Shown here piece after piece: positions 32,857 to 64,000 of a stretch of DNA of 64,000 nt. The translations under genes were made by a program, and so were the position numbers. The notes beneath the pieces were generated by a model. The model made no database searches, was not told where the DNA came from, and saw only the letters and a list, made by a program, of their open reading frames with translations. Source of the stretch: Neelides folsomi (taxonomy: Eukaryota; Arthropoda; Collembola; Neelipleona; Neelidae); contig JAQGBZ010000173.1 of the NCBI GenBank assembly GCA_034687125.1, forward strand, positions 1 through 64,000, in the 5' to 3' direction. Each line of letters opens with the position of its first letter. The stretch's first letter is position 1.

Positions 32857-34632
32857 TCAATATCGCGAAGGAGAGACGGCAGAAGAATGACGTGAGAGGA
32901 ATGCAGTTCCAATCCCGGGCGACGAAGGACCCGGAGACCCCAAACAACAACTTGAGCTTCTGCAAATTATACATTTATATTATAATTTATAATCAATATT
33001 TGATTATTGTTATATTAAAATACTGTTATATTTTTCATGCAATGTTTGATTTTACCTGCAAAATGACGTGTTATATGGAGGCGGAGGTTCATTTGGGGCC
33101 GTGGGAGACAAAGGGGCTTGAATTTGACCAGTGAGTTCTCTCTTGGCTCTTTCCACTTCCTCTTTCGTTCTTTCAAATCCAAGATAGCGAATTGAAGCTA
33201 ATTGGTCCGAAGGCGGTGGCGGATCCGGAATTTCAGAAGCAACATTTCGACCAGCTTCAAAAATCACTTTCGATTTCATTGCCAAATTCAATTGAGCTTC
33301 AGAAAATTTCTTTAAGGCGCCTTTTAATATGAGTAATTTGACTTCTTCTTGTTCTCGGCTCACATCACATGCTGAAATTAACAATTAACAATATAACTTA
33401 TGCATTTGTTAATTAAAAATTATAAAAATAAGAATATTTGCTTAAATATAATTTTAACCTTCTTGATGAGCTCTCTCAGCTCCGCGTTCTGCTTCAGCCA
33501 ATTGAGTTTGCAAAGTATTGAATTCTGGCGTTTGACCTCCAACAGCAGTTTGCGGTCTTTCTTGAACCTTTTTCTGTGCTTTGAGTAGTGACCGTCGAGA
33601 TCTAAGTCTTTTCCCTTCCGCATTCTGGAGTCGTTTCTGGGCCTCATCCGCCCTTCGTTCTCCTTCAAGGACAAGGGACAATTCTTTTCGGAGAGTTCTA
33701 AGGGCGTCTGACAAGGCCAAATGAGCTTCATAATGAAGAGTTGTGAGTTCAAGTGTGGCGGCCGCCACGTCGGCGAGACCGCGATTTTCTCCTGCTGCCC
33801 AATTGGCCAAGTCGGTAAAGAGGGAAAGTTGAGCAGCGGCCGAAGCCGCGGCGGCTGCTTGAGCTTCACGAGCTTGAACTAAAAGGACTTGCAATTTGCC
33901 ATGAGGACGAGCTTCAGCTACGAGCCTTAAAGTACCTCTGAAAAAATATAGAAATAATCACCCAATGTTAAATTTGCTCATTTTCATGACCAAACATAAC
34001 CAAATAAAATCCATTTATTTAAATATTCATAACTGTAGTTTTGTTATTTCAATATTTATCGTTAGTTTATTTGATTTAATTTTATATAATTAAATTACTT
34101 TTAAATGGATTTATTAATAATAACTATGTTTTTAACTTGGGATACTATACTATACTACCTAAGCATTTGTCTGTCTAACAATATTAGTTAGTGAATTTTT
34201 TAAAATATCTAGTATTACTTTAAACATTGCCTTTGTGTATTTATGATTGATAAATTGGTCTTTTACGAAATTTGAACAATCGTTCATTTTTCTCATTAAA
34301 ATTAGGCTTTATATTACATAGTTAATATTTTTATATTATATTTTTAAAAACTATATCAAAGAATATAATAATAAATTAGGTAAAATACTAAATTGTTTAC
34401 AATGGTAAAACTTTAAAGAACATTATTAATTTCAGCGTGGTGTAAATTACATTTTTGAGAAGCTTAAATAATGTGCATAATTTAAAATAATTGAGATATA
34501 ACTTAAAAACTTTTAAACAATTTTTCCGGCGTTAAATAGATATAATAATATTAAATATATTAAACAAAGAAATGAACCTGACCTTCTCAGACTTCCAGAA
34601 TTACAAGATCCTTCTGACCTCCGACCCGCCAT
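32857..34632 (-). CDS. BAR-like coiled-coil protein with PPPPY motif, 315 residues
   Basis: Four exons, phases checked: 34583-34632, 33459-33937, 33056-33371 and 32857-32959 (948 bases). After a short basic start (MAGRRSEGSCNSGSLRR) the protein is almost wholly helical: an Ala-rich helix (QAREAQAAAAASAAAQLSLF), then long charged helices (LALSDALRTLRKELSLVLEG, DEAQKRLQNAEGKRLRSRRS, EFNTLQTQLAEAERGAER, EVKLLILKGALKKFSEAQL). It ends with PDPPPPSDQ, a short YLGFERTKEEVERAKREL segment, PPPPYNTSF (a PPxY WW-domain ligand) and a Ser-rich tail. The helix pattern and AQLNLAMKSKVIFEAGRNV resemble BAR-type membrane-curving dimers (sorting, endocytosis or cilia proteins), but I cannot name an orthologue. 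Less AT-rich than its neighbours. Could instead be a plain coiled-coil adaptor. Confidence 0.8.
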
Positions 34633-39228: not shown

Positions 39229-42200
39229 TGGTTAAAAAATCGTTTTTAGTTTTTATTATTTTCGGATTTTGTGAATCGATGTTTATCAACTCAAATTCCT
39301 TTTCTATTACTACTCACACCAAATGTATTAACTCAAATATCTTGTCAGTTAGTGAAATTAAAATAGGTAATAAATCAATTGGTCTAAACTGCTCTTCACA
39401 AATTGGACCAGTTCGGTGGTTTCAAATTCCCGATCTGGTATGTGACTTAATTTATTTTCATGCAAATAAGGAAAATCATAAAATTAAAAAATTGTCTCTA
39501 TACTTTAATTAATAACTTGATTAATTACCATAAATAGTTGATGTTAAATTCTAAATTGTTTTAAATGTTTTAATTTCTAATTAGGAAATATCATCAGATT
39601 TTAAAATTAGACATGAAATAGAAATTGATATATCAGACCCATTTAACATTTCCAAATTCGGATACTCAAATTTGATTTATTTTAAGAAGGAATCAGAAAA
39701 TAAAAATTATTTATATTGCGAATTAATTATGAAATCTGATTGCGTGAAAAAAGTTTCATTCACATTTAGAAAACAAAACCTGGAGACATTTGAACAGGAA
39801 GATATCTCAAACAATGGTTGACAATTTTATTATTTATTTGAAAATATTTAAATGCACTAATACAATATCAATTAGTATTCAATCCAAAAAAATTTAAACA
39901 GATTCAAAGAGCATTCTTGGAAAACATTCGAACACGTGTCCTATTTATTTTTACGTGCTGACCTCAGAATATCAAATATCCTTTTTCTGTGATAAAAACG
40001 GAACGTTTAGTAGAAATGATATTGATAATATGCCGGAAGAAGAGTCTGTGGAATCCGAGGAAGAGGAACCTGATGATTCAAAGTATAGTATAAGAGACAA
40101 GTTTAAATGTCTGTATGCAGATTGCCACGATTCCTTCAAATATTCCGTCATAAAACTAGTAAATTATTTACTAGTTAACATTAACATTTATAATTATTTA
40201 CTAGTTAACATTAATATAATTATTATTTACTATATTTCAATTATTATTTTAATTTAACTCTACAAACTGTTCAATGCTGTATAAAGTGAATATAAAAATA
40301 TGGCATGTCGATAAAAATAATTGGGATTATTTTTTATATATTTAATTAGCCTTATGAATGTATGATACATTTAACTTACGCCAGCAGTTCAGAAATATAC
40401 ACAGCATGCAAATCGTGCAATAAAATTCTTTTTGAGAAAAATTATGCTCATTATAAATACTGCTTGGATGATGAAAATATTTATTTGTCTTATTTTTACA
40501 CAAATAAAATTGGGAACGGAGAAGCGATCCATTGTAAATTATTAAATTATTACACCCAATTCCCAATTATAATACAAATTATAATTGTAATTAAAATTTT
40601 ATATAAATTACAATTTGGTATTTAATAAGGCAACTACTAAATAGTACACAATACACATCTAGTTGGTACACATTTAAGTTAGTACACAGTACACAAACAT
40701 TTACATTAGTATCCCTATCTAACCTTCTATTTAGTACACAACTACATGCTACACATCTAAATAGTACACATCAAGGAATACACACCTTCTAGCTGGTACA
40801 CACTACACAAGTAATCTTCTAATTACTACACACTACACATAATGTACAGTTCATCTACTAATTAGTACATACTACACACAATTGAGGGAAAGGCCAGTTA
40901 TTGTAATTTTGTGATTAAAAACGATCATAATGCCAAATAATGCTCTTAATTGTGTGTAGTATGTACTAATTAGTAGATGAACTGTACATAATGTGTAGTG
41001 TGTAGTAATTAGAAGATTATTTGTGTAGTGTGTACCAGCTAGAAGGTGTGTATTCCTTGATGTGTACTATTTAGATGTGCAGTATTTAGTTGTATACTAA
41101 CATAAATGTGTAATTGTGTACTAACTAAATGTGTATTGTGTTCTATTTAGTATTTAATAATAGTGCCGTTTATCAGATCATATTATATTATGTCTTATTG
41201 TGTTTATGGAAATAAAAATGCAAAAATTTATTCAACTCAATTTCTATAACATGAAGCAATTATCTAACTTAAGTATGATACAAATCAAAAGTAGTTTCCA
41301 TTATTTTCAAAATATTTTCTTCACTGAGATTCCAATCTATTAATTCCTTCCTGCCAAAATTGTGATGTGCGAGATCCTAACCAGTTGTTTACTGGAATTT
41401 TTAAATCATCTTCGTTTTCAAATCGTTGACCTCTCAAGAATCTTTTCATGTGAGAAAATAAGTGAAAGTCAAATGGAGAAATGTCTGGAGAATAAGGCAG
41501 GTGTGGAAGAGTTTTGATTCCCAATCTGTCCAATGCGTCTTTAACAATTTGACAAGTATGAGGAAGAGCATTGTCTTGGAGCAAGCTTTTATTGTATCTT
41601 TTATAAGATACAATATATCGTATTGTCCAGTAGAAAGTATCTTTTGAACAGAAGCCCTTCCTGATGAAAACTTGGACATCCATTGGCTCACAGTTCTATC
41701 ACTCACACACGATTTGCCGTCAAGTTCTCTCATAAATCGACAAACTTCGGGAGGTTGCAACCCTTGTGACCAATATACTCAAATTGTTGACCTCTGTTCT
41801 TCAAAAGTGTTAATAACTTAACGATTTCTTGGAACTTCTGATTTTGCGTGAATATTAAGATACTCAAATAGTTAAAAAATTAATTGATTATTTTTCCTAT
41901 GTTGCCAATGTAAATTTGAATTTTGCACAAGACCAATAAGACATATAATTTGGTATGATCTGATAATAAGTGTAATGGCTAATGGCAACGTGTTTTATTA
42001 GACAATAAAATCCAGCAGGAAACGACTAAAATGGAAATCCGAATTAATACTAAAATAATTGACAAAGAAAATATCAATTTGACCTGTGAATATAATGAAA
42101 TGATAAGCCATAAAAGAATTTATGGTCTTTTAATTGGATACAAAAATGGCACCAATATTGTGCAATATTATAAAAACGAAGTTAAAATGAAGAACGGTGC

Positions 42201-47975: not shown

Positions 47976-49521
47976 CAGTCGGGAACAATAATAAACCCAG
48001 ACCAAGCTCTCATTTAGCATCCGTGTTAATAACTTTGTAACCATTTGATTAAATTAGCTGAAATTTTATTTGGAAGTTACTTCTTATAAAGGCTTTGTAA
48101 CGTAAAAATTTAAAGAAAAAACGATAACTCACATAAAAGATAAAAATTAAATTGTGCGCAAAGTCAGAATTTTCACTGGACAAAAGTCTTCCCACACTTA
48201 AATTTAATCAGGTTTATAATCTTAAAATTTAAAAAATTAATATTTTGTATGGGACCCTTTTTGCTTTAATTAAAGCAGCAACCCTCCTGGGCATTGATTC
48301 GACAAGCCTACAAGTTTCTTCTTGACCAATATTTCCCCATGTTTCTTGTAGAGCGGCAATCAGCTCATTTTTGTTTTTTGGCTTGCGATGCCGAAGACGT
48401 TTTTCCATAATTGCCCAAAGATGTTCAATTGGGTTTAAGTCCGGACTCTGTGCGGGTCATGGGAGAACATTTACTTTGTTTTTGTCGAACCAATTCTTTA
48501 CTGCGTCATCCTTGCTTCAATGATGTGACGTGTGCCAACGCCGTTGAACCCCATAGAACCCCAAACCATTACCGCTCCTAAAATTAAATATAGTGACAAG
48601 AAAATGAATAAATAATTTATTTGTTACCTCCTCTATGTTTGACTGTAGGTCGAACATATTTCGACTTGATGGCTGTTCCAACTTCTCTCCACACTCTTCC
48701 TCGGTTTCCTTGGCCGAACAAACAAAATTTACTTTCATCAGACCACAAAACATCTTTCCATTGGTCACGAGTCCAATCTTGATGCTGTCTTGCCCACGCC
48801 ATTCTTGCCTTGATGTGAACAGGTTTCAGAAGTGGCTTTTTTCTTGCGACTTAGGAATTTTTATTTGATTCCCTTATTCTACGTTTAATTGGCTTTGTTG
48901 ATACTCCAATTTCAAACTCACTTTGAATTTCGGTAGCAAGTTGACCTGATGAAATAAAGGGGTCATTGTTCACTTTCTTCTTAATGGCCCGATCGACTCG
49001 AACTGTTGTCTTCCTTGGCTTTCCGCTCCGGGATTTATTAACTATTAAATCTGTACTTTTGGACAATGGAGCAAACAGTACACTTATTTAATGACAATTT
49101 ATTCGCAATCTTAAGGTATTCTAAACCACTATTATGAAATTTAATTATCAAAATTTGTAAATCAAGAGAAAGGTCTTTGACGCGAAGCATTTTAATTCCC
49201 ACTAAAGTTTAAAATGAGTTGGAAAGAGTTCATATTGACATTTGAACCGTTAATGTCATTTAACATTTATTAGACAAACGTTTTGGCTCACTATTACAAA
49301 TTATGTATTGGGGTGGGAAGACTTTTGTCCAGTGAGAATTCTGTCTTTGCCTACAATTAAATTTTTAACTTTTATGTAAGTTATCATTTTTTCTTGAAAT
49401 TTTTACGTTACAAAGCCTTTATAGGAAGTAACTTTCAGGTAAAATTTCAGTTAATTTAATTAACTGGTTAAAAAGTTATTAACACTGATGCTTGGTTTGG
49501 GTTTATTATTGTTCCCGACTG
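47976..49521 (-). mobile_element. Tc1-type transposon, complete ends, degraded transposase
   Basis: A 1546-base element with inverted ends CAGTCGGGAACAATAATAAA, matching over about 25 bases and further imperfectly, flanked by TA on both sides (47974-47975, 49522-49523). The transposase lies on the minus strand. It starts near 49190 (MLRVKDLSLDLQILIIKF), then a frameshift near 49060, then SGKPRKTTVRVDRAIKKKV, DQWKDVLWSDESKFCLFG (first catalytic Asp), and GAVMVWGSMGFNGVGTRHII. A deleted stretch follows, then SPDLNPIEHLWAIMEKRLRH (third acidic residue). A stop replaces Trp in the block before SPDLNP, and the block holding the second Asp is missing. It could still be moved in trans because its ends are intact. 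Confidence 0.9.
48240..49190 (-). pseudogene. Tc1-type transposase, broken, with a spliceosomal-type intron
   Basis: Coding remains inside the element above. Between KHRG and AVMVWGSMGF the frame is interrupted by about 50 bases that begin GTAACA, are T-rich and end TTTTAG (about 48580-48628). Removing them restores the GG/AVMVWG frame, so this looks like a real intron rather than damage. Frameshift, deletion and a Trp-to-stop change elsewhere make the gene inactive. Confidence 0.75.
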
Positions 49522-49599: not shown

Positions 49600-52428
49600 T
49601 TAAATTCCAACAAGAACTTCGTAATCCAAGAAAAGATATTCTTTATTCCAATAAGGAACAATGCATCCTTTCCTTGATTTTTGAATTTTTCCAATTGAAG
49701 GTTCCGTTGGATTGTTGGGCGTTGAAATATAAACCCTGCCAATATAAAACGTTTCTCCGTTGGCGTCTTTCCCTCCAACAACTGCTTTACTCACGACGTC
49801 ACCATTTGAACAAAGAACCCATTTGTAACGGCAGTGATTCATTTTTAAAACCTAATTCATATATTAAAATAAAATTTTGATTAATTTAATGTTAAATCAT
49901 AAATGTATAAATGCACTAAATTGAGTATGATTTAAGAAATAAATCGAATTACTTCAAAATTTTGAAGTTTGATTTCTTTTTCGCCATTGGAACATTGAAA
50001 ACTATCAAATATTGGTATAAATTTTCCAGGAATTAGATCTTCCCCTATTTTTCCTCTTCCAACAAAAACTTCAATTTCATAATTTCCTTTTTCGAATCCC
50101 ACAATATCAATCCGTTCACCTTTGAAATGATTAAATCCTGGGAAAATAAATCTCCCAGCTGAAACTCTATTTTGTGTTGTTATTCTATAGTAAGGTTCCC
50201 AATCCATTTCTGGCATTTCTAAATTTTATTTAAAAATTAAACTATTTTTACCTAAAAATATTATATTACTTTAATTATTTATTTGAACCTTCTTGGATGG
50301 AACGTTTGAAAAAATCCAATTGAATTTCATAAGCTTTTAAGTAATTCTTCCATTGAGTTGTTTTGTCAAAATGAAAATATCCTTCACATTCCAATTTAAA
50401 TGAATGTAACAAACTGAAATCTGGAACTTTCCCTTTTAATGAACTTTCAAAGCAGAATTTTGCTTGTTGTAGAAAAGCTTCACTTTTGTTCATATAACTC
50501 TTCTTTGAATAAGCAAAAGCTAGTTGTATTAAATTTTCAGAAATCATTTCATCGTCTTCAATTAGTTCCTCTTTGAAAATGTTCAAAGTTTGTGTTAAAA
50601 CGAGAATTTTTTCGTCAATATCTTCTTTTTGCAAAGCATTTTCAAAATTTATTTTACTATCTACGACTGGATTTTTATTCCAAATTTCCGTTAAAATCGG
50701 ACAATTTTCCATTTCATCAATTAATTGAGGAACTTCTTGGATTTCTATCTTTGACAAACTCAACCGTTCTTCCTTTTTCATATTTAATTGGAAGTAATTC
50801 ATAATTGCCACGAAATGGGGCAATACATGACTCTTGAGCTCCAAATCCTCTTTTAACATTTTTCCAAAGGGATAAGAAAAGTTGAGGAAATTGTAGGCTT
50901 TGTCAAGTTCAGTAGATAAAACACCAGAGAAATATCTGTATTTAATTAAACATTTATTTTTTATAACTACTAGGTAAACACTCAATTGTAAATTTAAGTG
51001 AATAAATTAAAGTTAAACCCTTTAAATTCTTCGTCGTTTGAATTTCCTCCCATAATAAAGCGCATTGATTCTTGGACCAGACGATGAATCGAAAAAAATA
51101 AATCATCATCCAATTTAATTACAGAATATTGGTCCAAAGAAATGAGAATTGAATCTGTAAATAAAACCCTTGGGATTTTTTCAGGAGCCAAAAATGCAAT
51201 AATCTGCAAACAACTCATGACTTCATCGTCTCTGAGGAACTTTTTAATTGAAATCATCAGTGAATCCAAAACACAAGAATAATATTGCAAAAACTTCTGA
51301 TCGGTTGTTTTCAAATGAAGGCTCTTTTGTTTTTCTTTCTTTTTAAGATACCACTCGACGCTCCTTTTAGCTTCTCGCATATAACAAACAGCTTGGGTTA
51401 AAGCAAGTGGATGGAAATTGAGCTCATTTGCAAATTTTTCAATTAAATTCTTGGATTTAGCTTCTTTGTATTGTTCGGGAACTTTACGTTGAAGGTAAAT
51501 CGAAACTTCGTCCAAAGTGTAAAGATTTAATTCAATTTTATTTGCAGTTTCAAAAAGTGAGCCATTTCTTGTTATTAGAATTTTCCCTCCAGAGGGCGGA
51601 GTATAGTCTTGAATGGACTCTGGTGTTTCAACGTTGTCAAATACAATGAGCCAACCTGGATTATTTACAAACCAGTTTAAAATTGGTCCAAGTTCTTTGT
51701 TTTCTTTTTTAGTGGCGCCAACGTCATTTCCGAATAAAAGAAATTCTTCTTTTAATAATTCAGGTAATTCTGCTTTGAACCAAATAACTTTATTGTAATT
51801 GTCTTTATTGGTCCTGATATATTCAACCGTTAAGAAAGTTTTTCCAATTCCACCCAAGCCGACACAAGCAGTGATTAAAGTTTTATTCCCATTTTGCATA
51901 AAAGCATTTAATTTTTTTAATTTGTCTTCTCTGCCGACAAAATCTTTTTCTTTGTTAGGAACATTCCATTCTTTATTCTTCAATTGTATTAAATCATTAG
52001 GCAAATTGTTTTTATTTTGTTTCCCATCAACATCATTTCGGACATTTTTATCACAATTCCCACTTTGAAATTCTTGATTGTCCTTTTCAATTTCATATGC
52101 AACTTTCTTCCATTCCAATTTTTTTAAAAGATCCAAAAGCCAATTTTTTGTAAGTTCGCTTTTATTGTTTATATTTTCCAATGCTTTATAATAAGCTACT
52201 TTGATATCTTTGTTTTGATTCTCTCCATAAATACGGGATATTGAGGCAGATGTGTAAAATAGTTCTAAGTCATTTTTTTCATAGTGATTATTTCCCAGAA
52301 TTTCACTCCACTTTAGAATAGTTTGGTTATCTATTTATATAATATATGTTATTTAATATAGGTAATATCTCATTAAAAGTTTTATAATATTAAATCACAT
52401 TTAAATATTTTTTATTACCTTCGGGCAT
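49600..52428 (-). CDS. NLR/Apaf-1-style protein: Death-like, NB-ARC, helical region and two DM9 repeats
   Basis: Five exons, phases checked: 52419-52428, 51019-52330, 50289-50935, 49953-50218 and 49600-49851 (2487 bases, 828 residues). Residues 4-95 look like a Death-fold domain (ILKWSEILGNNHYEKNDLE, KNWLLDLLKKLEWKKVAYEI). NB-ARC follows: P-loop GLGGIGKT (161-168), Walker B WLIVFDNVE (230-238), GGKILITRN (251-259), HPLAL (310-314) and the winged-helix end SIHRLVQ (417-423), the form seen in NB-ARC/TPR proteins. A helical, TPR-like region spans about 440-655. Residues 657-828 are two DM9 repeats (EVFVGRGKIGEDLIPGKFIP...FEVL; VGGKDANGETFYIGR...KEYLFLDYEVL). NB-ARC proteins are nucleotide-driven oligomeric switches in cell death and immunity; DM9 proteins include invertebrate lectins that bind mannose. 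Inference: a cytosolic sensor with a lectin-type C-terminus. No signal peptide. Confidence 0.88.
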
Positions 52429-56974: not shown

Positions 56975-57130
56975 TTCAAGTTAGCCGAAGGCCGTCGTCC
57001 AAGATAGCCGACGTTTTTCCTTAAGCATTACAAGCCCTATCTAATCTCCAAGTTAGCCGAAGATCCGACGTCTAAGCTGGCCAAATAGCCGAATTTTAGA
57101 CAAGCCGACGTCCAAGATAGCCGAATTTAT
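56975..57130. repeat. degenerate tandem repeat, AGCCGA/GTCCAAG words
   Basis: At least six copies of an imperfect 15-25 base unit of the form CCAAGNTAGCCGANGTCCGACG. The clearest copies are TCCAAGATAGCCGA, TCCAAGTTAGCCGA and GACAAGCCGACGTCC. Markedly more GC-rich than the surroundings. It overlaps the 3' end of the transposase fragment next to it. Confidence 0.6.
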
Positions 57131-57394
57131 TTTATTAATAGTCATCACTTTCCTTGCTGTTGTGGAAACGTTGCTAACATTCCGAATGATGGCACGTTGA
57201 TTATGAGGAGAAAGAACTGATCGACGTTCTTCTCTATGGGCGACCCCATAAATTTCTCCCAATTCAAAATAATTCTTTATGGCATGGACTGACCTCCTAA
57301 TTTCTCGCGATATTTGTGCAATTGAGCTCCCTTCATTTCTTAATTGGCCAATTCTGCCTCTTTTGGCCACTGACAACCGGCGACCTCTTCCCAT
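57053..57394 (-). pseudogene. Tc1-type transposase fragment, DNA-binding half only
   Basis: An open frame starting MGRGRRLSVAKRGRIGQLRN with two helix-turn-helix motifs (SSIAQISREIRRSVHAIKNY; SPHNQRAIIRNVSNVSTTAR), as in Tc1/Tc3-type transposases. No catalytic DDE block follows; the frame degrades into the AGCCGA repeats. Inactive relic. Confidence 0.8.
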
Positions 57395-58129
57395 CTGGTA
57401 ATTTCAAATAATTCACGTACTTAATAATAAATATTGTTATTATTGATCAAAAGCACTTTATATTTAATTATTAAATAAAATTTAGATAATAATTATTATT
57501 TACCTTTAAAAATTTAAATTGACTCTTTGAAAATAAAAAATTTTCTAAAAGCGAGGAGTGGTTATCCGAATGAGGGACTCAAAATATGAATTTTATCAAA
57601 TGAACTGAACAAGTTTAATTTTTGGACACTTGGCCAATTAATTTATAATGCATCGCCGTAAATACAGACCAAATTTGAAAATTCAAACTTGTTACATTAC
57701 TTAGTTCTCATAATTTTGTCTCGGTTAAACGTATGAGCGGCAGCTTATAATGTGTGAGGGTACTGCGGTACAAATTTGGACTCTTTTACCGGTGATGCTG
57801 CATGTATTATAAAGAGAATAATCAATAATTATCCATTTATAATTTAATTGGATTTAAAATAACATATGTGTTATTTTAATTGTGTTCTTAATAATAGTAT
57901 AATCGATAATTATAACATTAAAACATTTCAATAATCATTAATGTAATTGATAACCTGAAGTTTATAAGTAGCAGAAAAATATCAAAATAATAGAATTTAA
58001 AGATAAAAATATAAACAAATAAAAGAAATGAACAATATTAATTATAAAGTTTTTATGATTTTATTAAAATAATTTCACAATTAAACTTTATTCCTTACAC
58101 ATTGATAAAAAACAATAAATTATTGTTTA
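57395..58129. other. intergenic with an unexplained GC-richer patch
   Basis: AT-rich except 57715-57800 (TATGAGCGGCAGC, GGTACTGCGGTAC), which I could not match to a gene, RNA or element. An upstream ATG at 58028 could start a first exon of the receptor gene, but its splice phase does not fit. Confidence 0.35.
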
Positions 58130-61938: not shown

Positions 61939-63864
61939 TTAAATAAGACTAGATGAACGGTGACAACAACTCAATAAAATTGAATTTTTAATTGACGAAA
62001 ATATTGATTTTTCTCTTAATATAATTTGCAGTAGTGAAATAAAAATTCCCATGAATAAAATATAAAATGACCCCTTTAAATTATTAAACGTGAGTTTTCG
62101 TGCACCACCTTCATTAAATTGAAATGTGGGCTTTTGCTTTGAATCCTTTTGCCAATTAAGAAAATCAGCTCTTAATTTTTCCAAATCCAATAGTTCCATT
62201 TTATCGATTATTCCCGTGTCAAGATACGCTTTAATAATTCGGTCAAAATTTTTCCTAAAAACGGCCTTTGGTTCAAAAGCATATCCTGAAACATGCGGTG
62301 CGAAAGTATATTCTTTAGATTTCACAAATGGGTTTTTTCTTGATCTGCTGCTAAAATTTCTATAAAATGTAAACCTTGCTCCGGCCTCAAAAGAAATGCA
62401 TGCAAAATCAGATTTGAGAGTTTTCAAGAAACAATTAACTGAATCTGGTTCGTAACTCATTCTGGATGTAATTTCCTTATAAATATAATTGGTGGATTTT
62501 CGCATAGCAAACTCAGCAGATCCGCCAATTAGGGCCAATTCCAAACCAAATGTAAACTTTTTCGATGTGACAAGTTGGAGATAAGTTTCAGGAACTTGTT
62601 GTTTAATTGGGAAAACAAGATTTCCAAATAATTTTGATTTATAGCCAGTTGTAATAACAATCGAAAATAAGAACCAAATGATAGCCAACACCATTCCAGA
62701 ATTTAAAGATTTTTCTTTAAGGCCAAATCCTTGGTCTAATAAATTACCAAAAATCATATCCACATTTTCTTTGAGTAAAATTGAGTTGAATCTTATATAT
62801 GAAATTATACAAAAAATAAATAAAGATGCAAAACTTGAAACTACAAGAAAAATCCAAGTTGTTAATGAAAATGACCAAACAATTGATGTCCAAGGGTAAA
62901 TTGGATATGGTTCAGAAACTGTAAAAATAATTCGCACGAAAGTGATTGGTTTGGCAAATCCCAAGACTCTTCCTCTTGCTTGAGTTTGCCCGCCTAATAA
63001 AGCAATGTCGGCTCTATCATGAACAATGTCACCCATTGAACCAATCCAACTTCCATTGGCCAAAGGGCCGCCTGTGCTCCCACCAATTCCAGATAGTAAA
63101 TGGATGGTGAAATTAAAAATTACCGCCAATTCTAAAATCAATTGGCCTTGGACGCCTCTTTTAAATTCAAGTTTCCCATTAGTTGTTTTAAGTTCTGACC
63201 ACGCTAATAGTTTTGTTGGTGAACTTACTCTGAGAATTCTTCCGTAAAAATTGTCTAATTGGTCAGGAAAAAAGGATTTTAACTCATTTGAGAATAAATT
63301 GGTTAGATTTGATTCATTAGCTTGAAACAAAAATGTTCTTTTTTCTTTAAAGTAATCACAATAAAAACATCCAGTGTTTAAAATCACCGTGGACTTTCCA
63401 TTTTGTTTTATATAACTAGCTATAAGTCGGAATTTAAGTTTTTTGGTAAATTCGATATTTAAAACAGGCTCAACGAGATTTTTTGATAACACGAATAAAA
63501 AATAATCTTCGTCTTTATGAGTTATTGGTCCAAATTTTGGAAATAAGAATTGACTAATGTTTAATGACTTTTGTGGAAATATTCGACTAATAAATAAAAT
63601 TGTAATCATGCAACGTTGAATTGCGAATTTATGTATATTATGAAATGAAGAAACTTTCTGATTGATATTTGAATCAAAATTGTAATTATATAAGGAATTT
63701 GACTGATCTACATTTAATTGATTGTTTACAAAATATTGTGTAGAATAATTTTCAATTGAAGAATCACCAACTAAAATTACATCACAGCCAATAAAATAAC
63801 TCTGGACAAAATTATTTGTAAATCTACTTAAAATGTTAATATTTTCCATTTTTATATTTAACAT
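61939..63864 (-). CDS. ionotropic receptor (IR), chemosensory type, intronless
   Basis: One open exon of 641 residues from ATG 63864. IRs are variant ionotropic glutamate receptors used for smell and taste in arthropods. Order seen: a divergent N-terminal domain; ligand-binding S1 (FKRGVQGQLILELAVIFNF, GSMGDIVHDRADIALLGG, then FAKPITFVRIIFTVSEPYPI); M1 (VWSFSLTTWIFLVVSSFASL); a pore segment; M3 (GMVLAIIWFLFSIVITTGYK) ending TGYKSKLFGNLVFP, the counterpart of the SYTANLAAFL motif; S2 (ITSRMSYEPDSVNCFLKTLK, FAPHVSGYAFEPKAVFRKNF); and a last helix (NLKGSFYILFMGIFISLLQI). A leading Leu-rich segment rather than a clear signal peptide begins the chain, so an upstream exon is possible. Lack of introns fits the fast-evolving divergent IR group, often formed by retroposition and duplication. 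Ligand unknown. Confidence 0.88.
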   Translation of the reverse strand: MLNIKMENINILSRFTNNFVQSYFIGCDVILVGDSSIENYSTQYFVNNQLNVDQSNSLYNYNFDSNINQKVSSFHNIHKFAIQRCMITILFISRIFPQKSLNISQFLFPKFGPITHKDEDYFLFVLSKNLVEPVLNIEFTKKLKFRLIASYIKQNGKSTVILNTGCFYCDYFKEKRTFLFQANESNLTNLFSNELKSFFPDQLDNFYGRILRVSSPTKLLAWSELKTTNGKLEFKRGVQGQLILELAVIFNFTIHLLSGIGGSTGGPLANGSWIGSMGDIVHDRADIALLGGQTQARGRVLGFAKPITFVRIIFTVSEPYPIYPWTSIVWSFSLTTWIFLVVSSFASLFIFCIISYIRFNSILLKENVDMIFGNLLDQGFGLKEKSLNSGMVLAIIWFLFSIVITTGYKSKLFGNLVFPIKQQVPETYLQLVTSKKFTFGLELALIGGSAEFAMRKSTNYIYKEITSRMSYEPDSVNCFLKTLKSDFACISFEAGARFTFYRNFSSRSRKNPFVKSKEYTFAPHVSGYAFEPKAVFRKNFDRIIKAYLDTGIIDKMELLDLEKLRADFLNWQKDSKQKPTFQFNEGGARKLTFNNLKGSFYILFMGIFISLLQIILREKSIFSSIKNSILLSCCHRSSSLI

Positions 63865-64000
63865 TATGTACTTAATTATTAGATAGATAATTGAAATAAT
63901 TGGTATATAGGGAAGTTAATTTTTCATTTAGAATCTTTAATTTGCAATATTTAAGCGAGAATTTCATAAGAAACTTATATGCCTTTAATTCATAAGACTT

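Follow-up and report, generated by a model that had tools for sequence, protein, structure and literature searches.

A five-exon gene joins an NB-ARC region to two DM9 repeats

The window analyzed here is a stretch of 64,000 nucleotides of contig JAQGBZ010000173.1 from the springtail Neelides folsomi, with a G+C content of 29.9%. At positions 49600-52428, on its minus strand, lies a gene that combines a probable Death-like N-terminal domain (D1), an NB-ARC region, a TPR-like helical region, and a C-terminal pair of DM9 repeats; we refer to this NB-ARC/DM9 gene as C173. It has 5 exons with GT/AG borders and intron phases of, in order, 1, 2, 1, and 0, and its spliced coding sequence measures 2487 nt (828 codons and a stop). 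This confirms the phase-consistent five-exon structure proposed in the first-pass annotation, including the product size of 828 residues. The features assigned to the gene are the following.

52419..52428, minus strand: exon 1, 10 coding nt starting with the ATG (MPE/D) and ending in phase 1; inferred from the ATG, the GT donor, and the phase
51019..52330, minus strand: exon 2, Death-like domain and NB-ARC
52083..52319, minus strand: D1, N-terminal Death-like domain, residues 8-86; the Death assignment is sub-threshold
51051..51962, minus strand: NB-ARC region, residues 127-430, from profile matches and alignments
51837..51860, minus strand: Walker A motif GLGGIGKT, residues 161-168; four Gly and the Lys invariant in 11/11 aligned rows
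50289..50935, minus strand: exon 3, TPR-like helical region, from the family profile
50219..50288, minus strand: intron 3, phase 1, 70 bp; the point where the DM9 and ankyrin genes of the family diverge
49953..50218, minus strand: exon 4, DM9 repeat 1, from the PF11901 match and the CGL1 alignment
49600..49851, minus strand: exon 5, DM9 repeat 2, in which Asp, Lys, and Glu correspond to D22, K43, and E59 of CGL1

The NB-ARC switch is related to bacterial and plant proteins

The NB-ARC switch claimed for this gene was borne out by a bacterial family model, by a consensus of paralogues, and by solved structures. The C173 protein alone scored 16.4 bits against PF00931 (E = 0.0058), under the curated cut-off of 23.5. 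NF040586, a bacterial NB-ARC/TPR model (NCBIfam FxSxx_TPR) from a library of bacterial and archaeal families only, matched exon 2 at E = 1e-40 and the whole protein at 5.5e-40 (residues 127-428, model positions 1-305 of 830), with 137.6 bits that fall below the equivalog cut-off of 300 bits. The consensus of an 11-row paralogue alignment (A1) passed PF00931 (7.8e-9; 35.6 bits versus the cut-off of 23.5), and among solved structures the paralogue profile found ZAR1 (listed as RPP13-like protein 4; 1.7e-8) and Roq1 (8e-8), followed by NRC4, NRC1, and NRC2. The NF040586 match, the 11-row consensus, and the structure matches led by ZAR1 together settle the identity of the region, and at the level of sequence we regard the NB-ARC assignment as secure.

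Compared to three bacterial relatives, the P-loop glycines and Lys, the Asp of LIVFDN, T255/R256, and H417 (exon-2 numbering) were invariant. H417 is the His of IHRLVQ, the sequence that C173 carries at the MHD-like place instead of MHD. In the TSR column of alignment A1, the C173 copy is off by one residue, which we take to be an alignment shift.

Against a switch of the apoptosome kind, no Apaf-1 chain was present among the 49 solved sequences matched by the paralogue profile. A canonical Apaf-1 was rejected, as the C173 gene gave no CARD or WD40 match at E up to 1. The protein likewise had no NACHT or LRR match at E up to 1 and lies outside the definition of a bona fide NLR. The best PF00931 match of the genome is at a separate locus (C267; L034 and L042) that reads like the Apaf-1 of this species; the C267 fragment showed no CARD and no Pfam match at 0.01.

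The NB-ARC genes form a family with two kinds of tail

Searching the whole genome (75 Mb) with the C173 protein returned 48 matches, and the NB-ARC part was found at 19 places, C173 included, several of which are truncated or contain stops. DM9 follows the NB-ARC and TPR-like parts in four genes, namely C173, C341, C832 (its 5' side cut off by the contig end), and C641. At nine other loci (C662, C824, C458, C235 with two copies, C305, C449, C517, and C369), the TPR-like exon is followed by a second Death-like domain, D2. Ankyrin repeats were confirmed by Pfam in 4/4 tails scanned: those of C662, C824, C458, and the C235 copy at 33747, in which the ankyrin frame starts approximately 1.7 kb past D2. 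Neither tail was confirmed at C829. The C641 gene (L025 868-3276) has exons 2 and 3 as a single open frame, and its NB-ARC carries a long repetitive Ala/Asn/Lys-rich insertion directly after the P-loop helix. No Met was found upstream of the NB-ARC in exon 2 of C173, or before D1 in the ankyrin-type sister frames read; C641 does have one.

The exon structure is shared across the two groups at the point where the tail begins. A phase-1 junction precedes DM9 in all four DM9 genes (junction codons GAA, GCA, GCA, and GGA), and a phase-0 junction separates the two repeats in each of them. The phases 1, 2, 1, 0 are common to C173 and C341 (the end of exon 2 in C341 being read by eye), with 2, 1, 0 in the readable part of C832 and 1, 0 in that of C641. 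In C662, C824, and C458 (3/3 checked; splice sites by eye), a phase-1 intron lies at the same place before D2. The phase-0 intron between the repeats, at an E/V boundary, was also present at the DM9 loci C25 and C27 and absent from C236 and C311; no NB-ARC was seen in the stretches read of these four loci.

A tree of 12 rows was made from 12 of the 19 places, leaving out C449, C369, C499, and C542 (stops or frameshift) and the fragments C699, C765, and C773. One change, on a branch with support 100/99, separated the 7 rows labelled as ankyrin-type from the 4 DM9 rows, and C829 was assigned to no group. Two features of the tree count against a simple exchange: the ankyrin label was backed by a scanned ankyrin tail in 4/7 rows and by D2 alone in 3/7, and C641 and C829 form long branches of unsure placement. 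On these sequence data, the ankyrin tail and DM9 appear to have been exchanged within the family, in a direction (that is, which tail is older) not fixed by the tree. The earlier proposal that DM9 replaces a repeat sensor stood as regards the replacement itself, the paralogues carrying D2 and ankyrin at that place; it did not stand as regards WD40 or LRR.

The DM9 pair retains part of a mannose site

The two C-terminal DM9 repeats described in the first-pass annotation were recovered by PF11901 well above its cut-off in C173 (E = 5.4e-24; 84.8 bits versus 26.2), and 4/4 NB-ARC/DM9 genes passed the same model. The oyster lectin CGL1 (PDB 5id8 and 5idb; molecule name Natterin-3) was found with DM9 at 5.8e-5. 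In oysters, DM9 binds microbial sugars. CGL1 has two mannose sites (PMC4932603). In site A, the sugar is contacted by Asp22, Lys43, Glu59, and the Ala127 main chain, and His52 and Phe126 stack; site B is made of Lys114, Glu130, and the Ala56 main chain, together with Phe55 and Tyr123. Oyster CgDM9CP-1 depends critically on Asp22 and Lys43 in ligand recognition and enters the cytoplasm together with engulfed microbes; fusions of DM9 with other domains are noted in the same source, none of them with NB-ARC in the sections available (PMC5712788).

In pairwise alignment with CGL1, repeat 2 of C173 has D, K, and E at the places of residues 22, 43, and 59, and Tyr at the Phe55 place. Other residues argue against a conserved lectin site. 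Repeat 1 has K and E at places 43 and 59, and a Glu in a gapped stretch at the Asp22 place. The stacking partners of mannose are not kept around the D/K/E site, where Ile stands in for His52 and an Asn of repeat 1 for the Phe. Repeat 2 reads E, K, E at the 22/43/59 places in C832 and E, K, Q in C341, while in C641 the Asp and Glu are gone, and with them most of the site; its Lys43 place is Lys in the CGL1 alignment and Tyr in the junction reading. Since the site residues differ among the DM9 genes, sugar binding is not a constant of the family. A sugar site is plausible in C173, and as read from the sequences it is variable across the DM9 branch.

These differences raise the alternative that the switch is NLR-like and DM9 has no sugar binding, serving now as a protein-interaction or membrane-docking module whose input is an endogenous protein, in a guard-like manner, or a cell-death signal. 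Ankyrin repeats usually bind proteins, and the sister genes carry them at the same place as DM9, which, together with the variation of the binding-site residues among the four DM9 genes and the Ile and Asn stacking partners of C173, would fit such a role. In contrast, the polar Asp/Lys/Glu triad is whole in repeat 2 of C173, Lys and Glu remain in repeat 1, and between C173 and C341 the DM9 part is better conserved than exon 3 (52% versus 34% amino acid identity). We consider this alternative possible but doubtful. The ratio of nonsynonymous to synonymous substitution rates (dN/dS) between C341 and C832 was approximately 0.23 in exon 3 and in the DM9 exons alike, indicating that the DM9 exons are constrained like the body of the protein. 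At one of the DM9 loci mentioned above, C311 (L006, minus strand), an astacin peptidase frame (1.2e-9) precedes DM9 frames, in what may be a further DM9 fusion.

The N-terminal domain is probably a divergent Death domain

An alignment of 14 D1 domains revealed one invariant Asn and one invariant Trp, and a search with one D1 query detected at least 22 D1-like stretches in the genome, the query's own included. D2 (nine rows) is homologous to D1 (hhalign E = 8e-8, probability 94.5). Death (PF00531) was the top Pfam family for the D1 consensus (0.0018), at 18.8 of the 22.6 bits of its gathering score, and the sole Pfam family for the D1 of C765 (0.0028). Among the 14 single D1 domains, Death was matched by 2 (best 0.0091) and Death_3 by 2 (best 0.028). 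On both C765 (L055 3142-4010) and C536 (L056 1158-3462), a D1-like domain lies 3' of a Death domain scoring above the cut-off, at 35.1 bits (1.5e-8) and 33.1 bits, respectively.

Several results weigh against a Death assignment. SNAPC3 was matched by 2/14 single D1 domains, as often as Death and with a better best value (0.0053), and Pfam gave no Death match for the D1 of C173 itself and no match at all for the D1 of C536 or the D2 consensus. No Death domain was found in profile searches of the PDB with alignments A2, A3, and A4. The hhalign comparison of D1 with the Death domain of C765 covered 28 columns at a probability of 2.3. Two structure models were poor (predicted local distance difference test [pLDDT] values of 59 and 51), with five helices at low confidence, compared with the six-helix Greek key of the Death fold. 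A Foldseek search listed FADD entries at ranks 2 and 3, at E = 3.5 and 4.2, and gave no significant match.

D1 could accordingly be read as an unrelated helical adaptor that lacks the Death fold and signals via other partners, a reading consistent with the fact that no tested D1 or D2 exceeds the Death cut-off. The rank of Death in the consensus and C765 searches, the position of the C765 D1 behind a significant Death domain, and the homology of D1 and D2 argue against it, and we judge it unlikely. We call D1 Death-like, and it is probably a divergent Death domain; the Death-type N-terminus proposed earlier held only as Death-like, through the relatives of the gene, below the Pfam cut-off and with no match for the C173 copy.

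D1 also occurs in other settings. It is joined to ankyrin at C365, and C536 (L056) was also read by eye to contain ankyrin repeats. At C166 (L058 1715-3061, minus strand), a D1-like domain precedes a hydrophobic stretch that apparently spans the membrane, with a TPR-like part after it; the protein is possibly a membrane-bound member of the same signalling set. The Death domains of C765 and C536 are possible downstream adaptors.

The middle region is TPR-like by homology within the family

Exon 3 of C173 had no Pfam match, and exon 3 of C341 and C832 matched other weak families only at E up to 0.1. TPR_12 was matched by 5/12 family members (best 0.01) and CmlS_C by one of the 12 (0.00049), and the family profile found the TPRs of kinesin light chain at 2e-4. 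From the helical, TPR-like region of the first reading we retain the TPR-like label, which homology inside the family makes a fair one; the TPR gathering score was not reached.

The exons probably belong to one animal gene

The four DM9 loci could instead each hold two adjacent genes, an NB-ARC/TPR-like gene whose end lies just past exon 3, next to a short DM9 gene starting from an ATG in exon 4. Exon 3 does run to a stop within a few codons past the donor in the four genes, and in 3/4 of them exon 4 has an ATG two bases past the acceptor. Against this, the pair adjoins with a phase-1 donor and acceptor at all four loci, exon 4 of C641 has no ATG, the gap between exons 3 and 4 of C173 is only 70 bp, and in 3/3 sister genes checked this intron precedes a different domain. 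As either tail is preceded by a phase-1 intron at the matching position, and the two are separated by one change in the tree, two separate transcripts are unlikely; exons 1-5 of C173 are best treated as one predicted gene, and we give the two-gene arrangement very little credence.

Contamination or a recent bacterial transfer without animal function, suggested by the match of the NB-ARC to a bacterial family at 1e-40 and by a bacterial protein at 30% identity, is hardly credible and was rejected on the introns of the C173 gene and on its paralogues, given the 19 NB-ARC places, the DM9 intron common to other DM9 loci of the genome, and an identity to the bacterial loci found of only 22-32%. The nearest bacterial relatives found were two NB-ARC/TPR-like proteins (L059 and L060; 27-32% identity) of one metagenome-assembled genome (MAG; clean1871), both with TPR-like repeats after the NB-ARC as read by eye. 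Viral contigs yielded one weak locus at 20% identity.

Elsewhere in the window, a Tc1/mariner-type transposase piece, recognized by eye, lies just downstream of the gene (48229-49208, minus strand), and further pieces of this type, with weak Pfam support, lie at 41327-41695 and 57056-57403 (minus strand). An ionotropic receptor-like ligand-gated ion channel occupies 61945-63915 (minus strand; Lig_chan 1.6e-7). In the genome, Chitin_bind_4 had 39 matches, which supports an arthropod origin, and the condensation domain, a marker of beta-lactam synthesis, had one match below the family cut-off.

A candidate intracellular receptor with an exchangeable tail

The best reading of these results is that C173 encodes a cytosolic sensor of the NLR-like kind that arose through an exon swap. 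We propose, with a probability of roughly 0.6, a cytosolic NB-ARC switch of the STAND/NLR-like type with a Death-like adaptor, a TPR-like middle, and a DM9 pair as input, the tail having been exchanged at the phase-1 intron. This proposal builds on the domain order, the family, the exon structure, and the purifying selection seen in one paralogue pair; glycan sensing by DM9, nucleotide exchange with ring assembly, and Death signalling are its predicted parts.

NB-ARC proteins are in general held as closed, nucleotide-bound monomers that a ligand at the C-terminal module releases for assembly via the NB-ARC. By this scheme, the ligand recognized by the DM9 pair would most likely be a glycan of the mannose type, displayed by a microbe or a damaged vesicle. 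Binding would free the NB-ARC for nucleotide exchange and then ring assembly, and the ring would cluster the Death-like domains and recruit partners, for example the Death proteins encoded elsewhere in this genome. The exchange of tails points to comparable roles of DM9 and D2-ankyrin in recognizing the input. By eye, with no predictor run, the C173 protein has no apparent signal peptide or membrane span, which suggests a cytosolic place. Glycans are normally found outside the cytosol, so the trigger may be an invader or a broken vesicle.

More tentatively, we suggest that this lineage has its own expanded, plant-like NB-ARC repertoire with whole sensor tails swapped at one intron; the members of one branch would be cytosolic lectin receptors, with exposed glycans setting off Death-type assemblies. 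If this is true, NLR-type intracellular surveillance has been rebuilt in this arthropod lineage, and the intron at which the tail changes would be a concrete, testable route to new receptor specificities. With the oyster DM9 structures at hand, the ligand predicted here can be tested directly.

Comparison with known systems

In the open-licence PubMed Central literature, we found no animal protein joining NB-ARC with DM9 (DUF3421). Within that literature, DM9 and NB-ARC were mentioned together in plant papers only, judged by title; nothing was found on DM9 domain architectures that include nucleotide-binding parts, on NB-ARC in springtail genomes, or on NLR immune genes of Folsomia candida, and no paper on NB-ARC, death domains, and ankyrin mentioned Collembola.

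The FxSxx-COOH NB-ARC/TPR proteins (NF040586) and bacterial NB-ARC/TPR-like proteins such as L059 have the same NB-ARC core as C173 through IHRLVQ. They differ in that the NF040586 match in C173 stops short of the TPR part of the model, and in that L059 has a helix-turn-helix-like N-terminus (by eye), with no Death-like domain or DM9 seen. The plant NLRs ZAR1, Roq1, and the NRC group have an NB-ARC that is alike by profile to that of the C173 family. Plant NLRs carry an N-terminal CC or TIR and an LRR sensor. The Apaf-1 apoptosome follows the same general plan as C173, with an N-terminus of the Death superfamily type and an NB-ARC; Apaf-1 carries CARD and WD40. Bona fide NLRs are defined by NACHT and LRR, and various arthropods are said to lack them (PMC7308585). 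C173 has NB-ARC instead of NACHT and DM9 at the C-terminal place.

Coral and placozoan genomes contain lineage-specific, expanded sets of NB-ARC/NACHT proteins, those of corals having Death-type N-termini and tails of TPR, ankyrin, or WD40, according to the available sections of PMC4083563 and PMC6321704. Their modular plan and expansion resemble those of the C173 family, with no DM9 tail among the NB-ARC proteins described in these sections. The oyster CGL1/CgDM9CP-1 shares with C173 two DM9 repeats and an Asp/Lys/Glu triad in one of them. It is a lectin without a switch, its triad lies in the first repeat whereas that of C173 lies in the second, and the stacking partners differ. Rice has NB-ARC/jacalin proteins (PMC5485960), in which a lectin is joined to an NB-ARC as in C173, but the lectin is jacalin, not DM9, and the lineage is that of plants. 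With these rice proteins, an NB-ARC tipped with a lectin already has a precedent.

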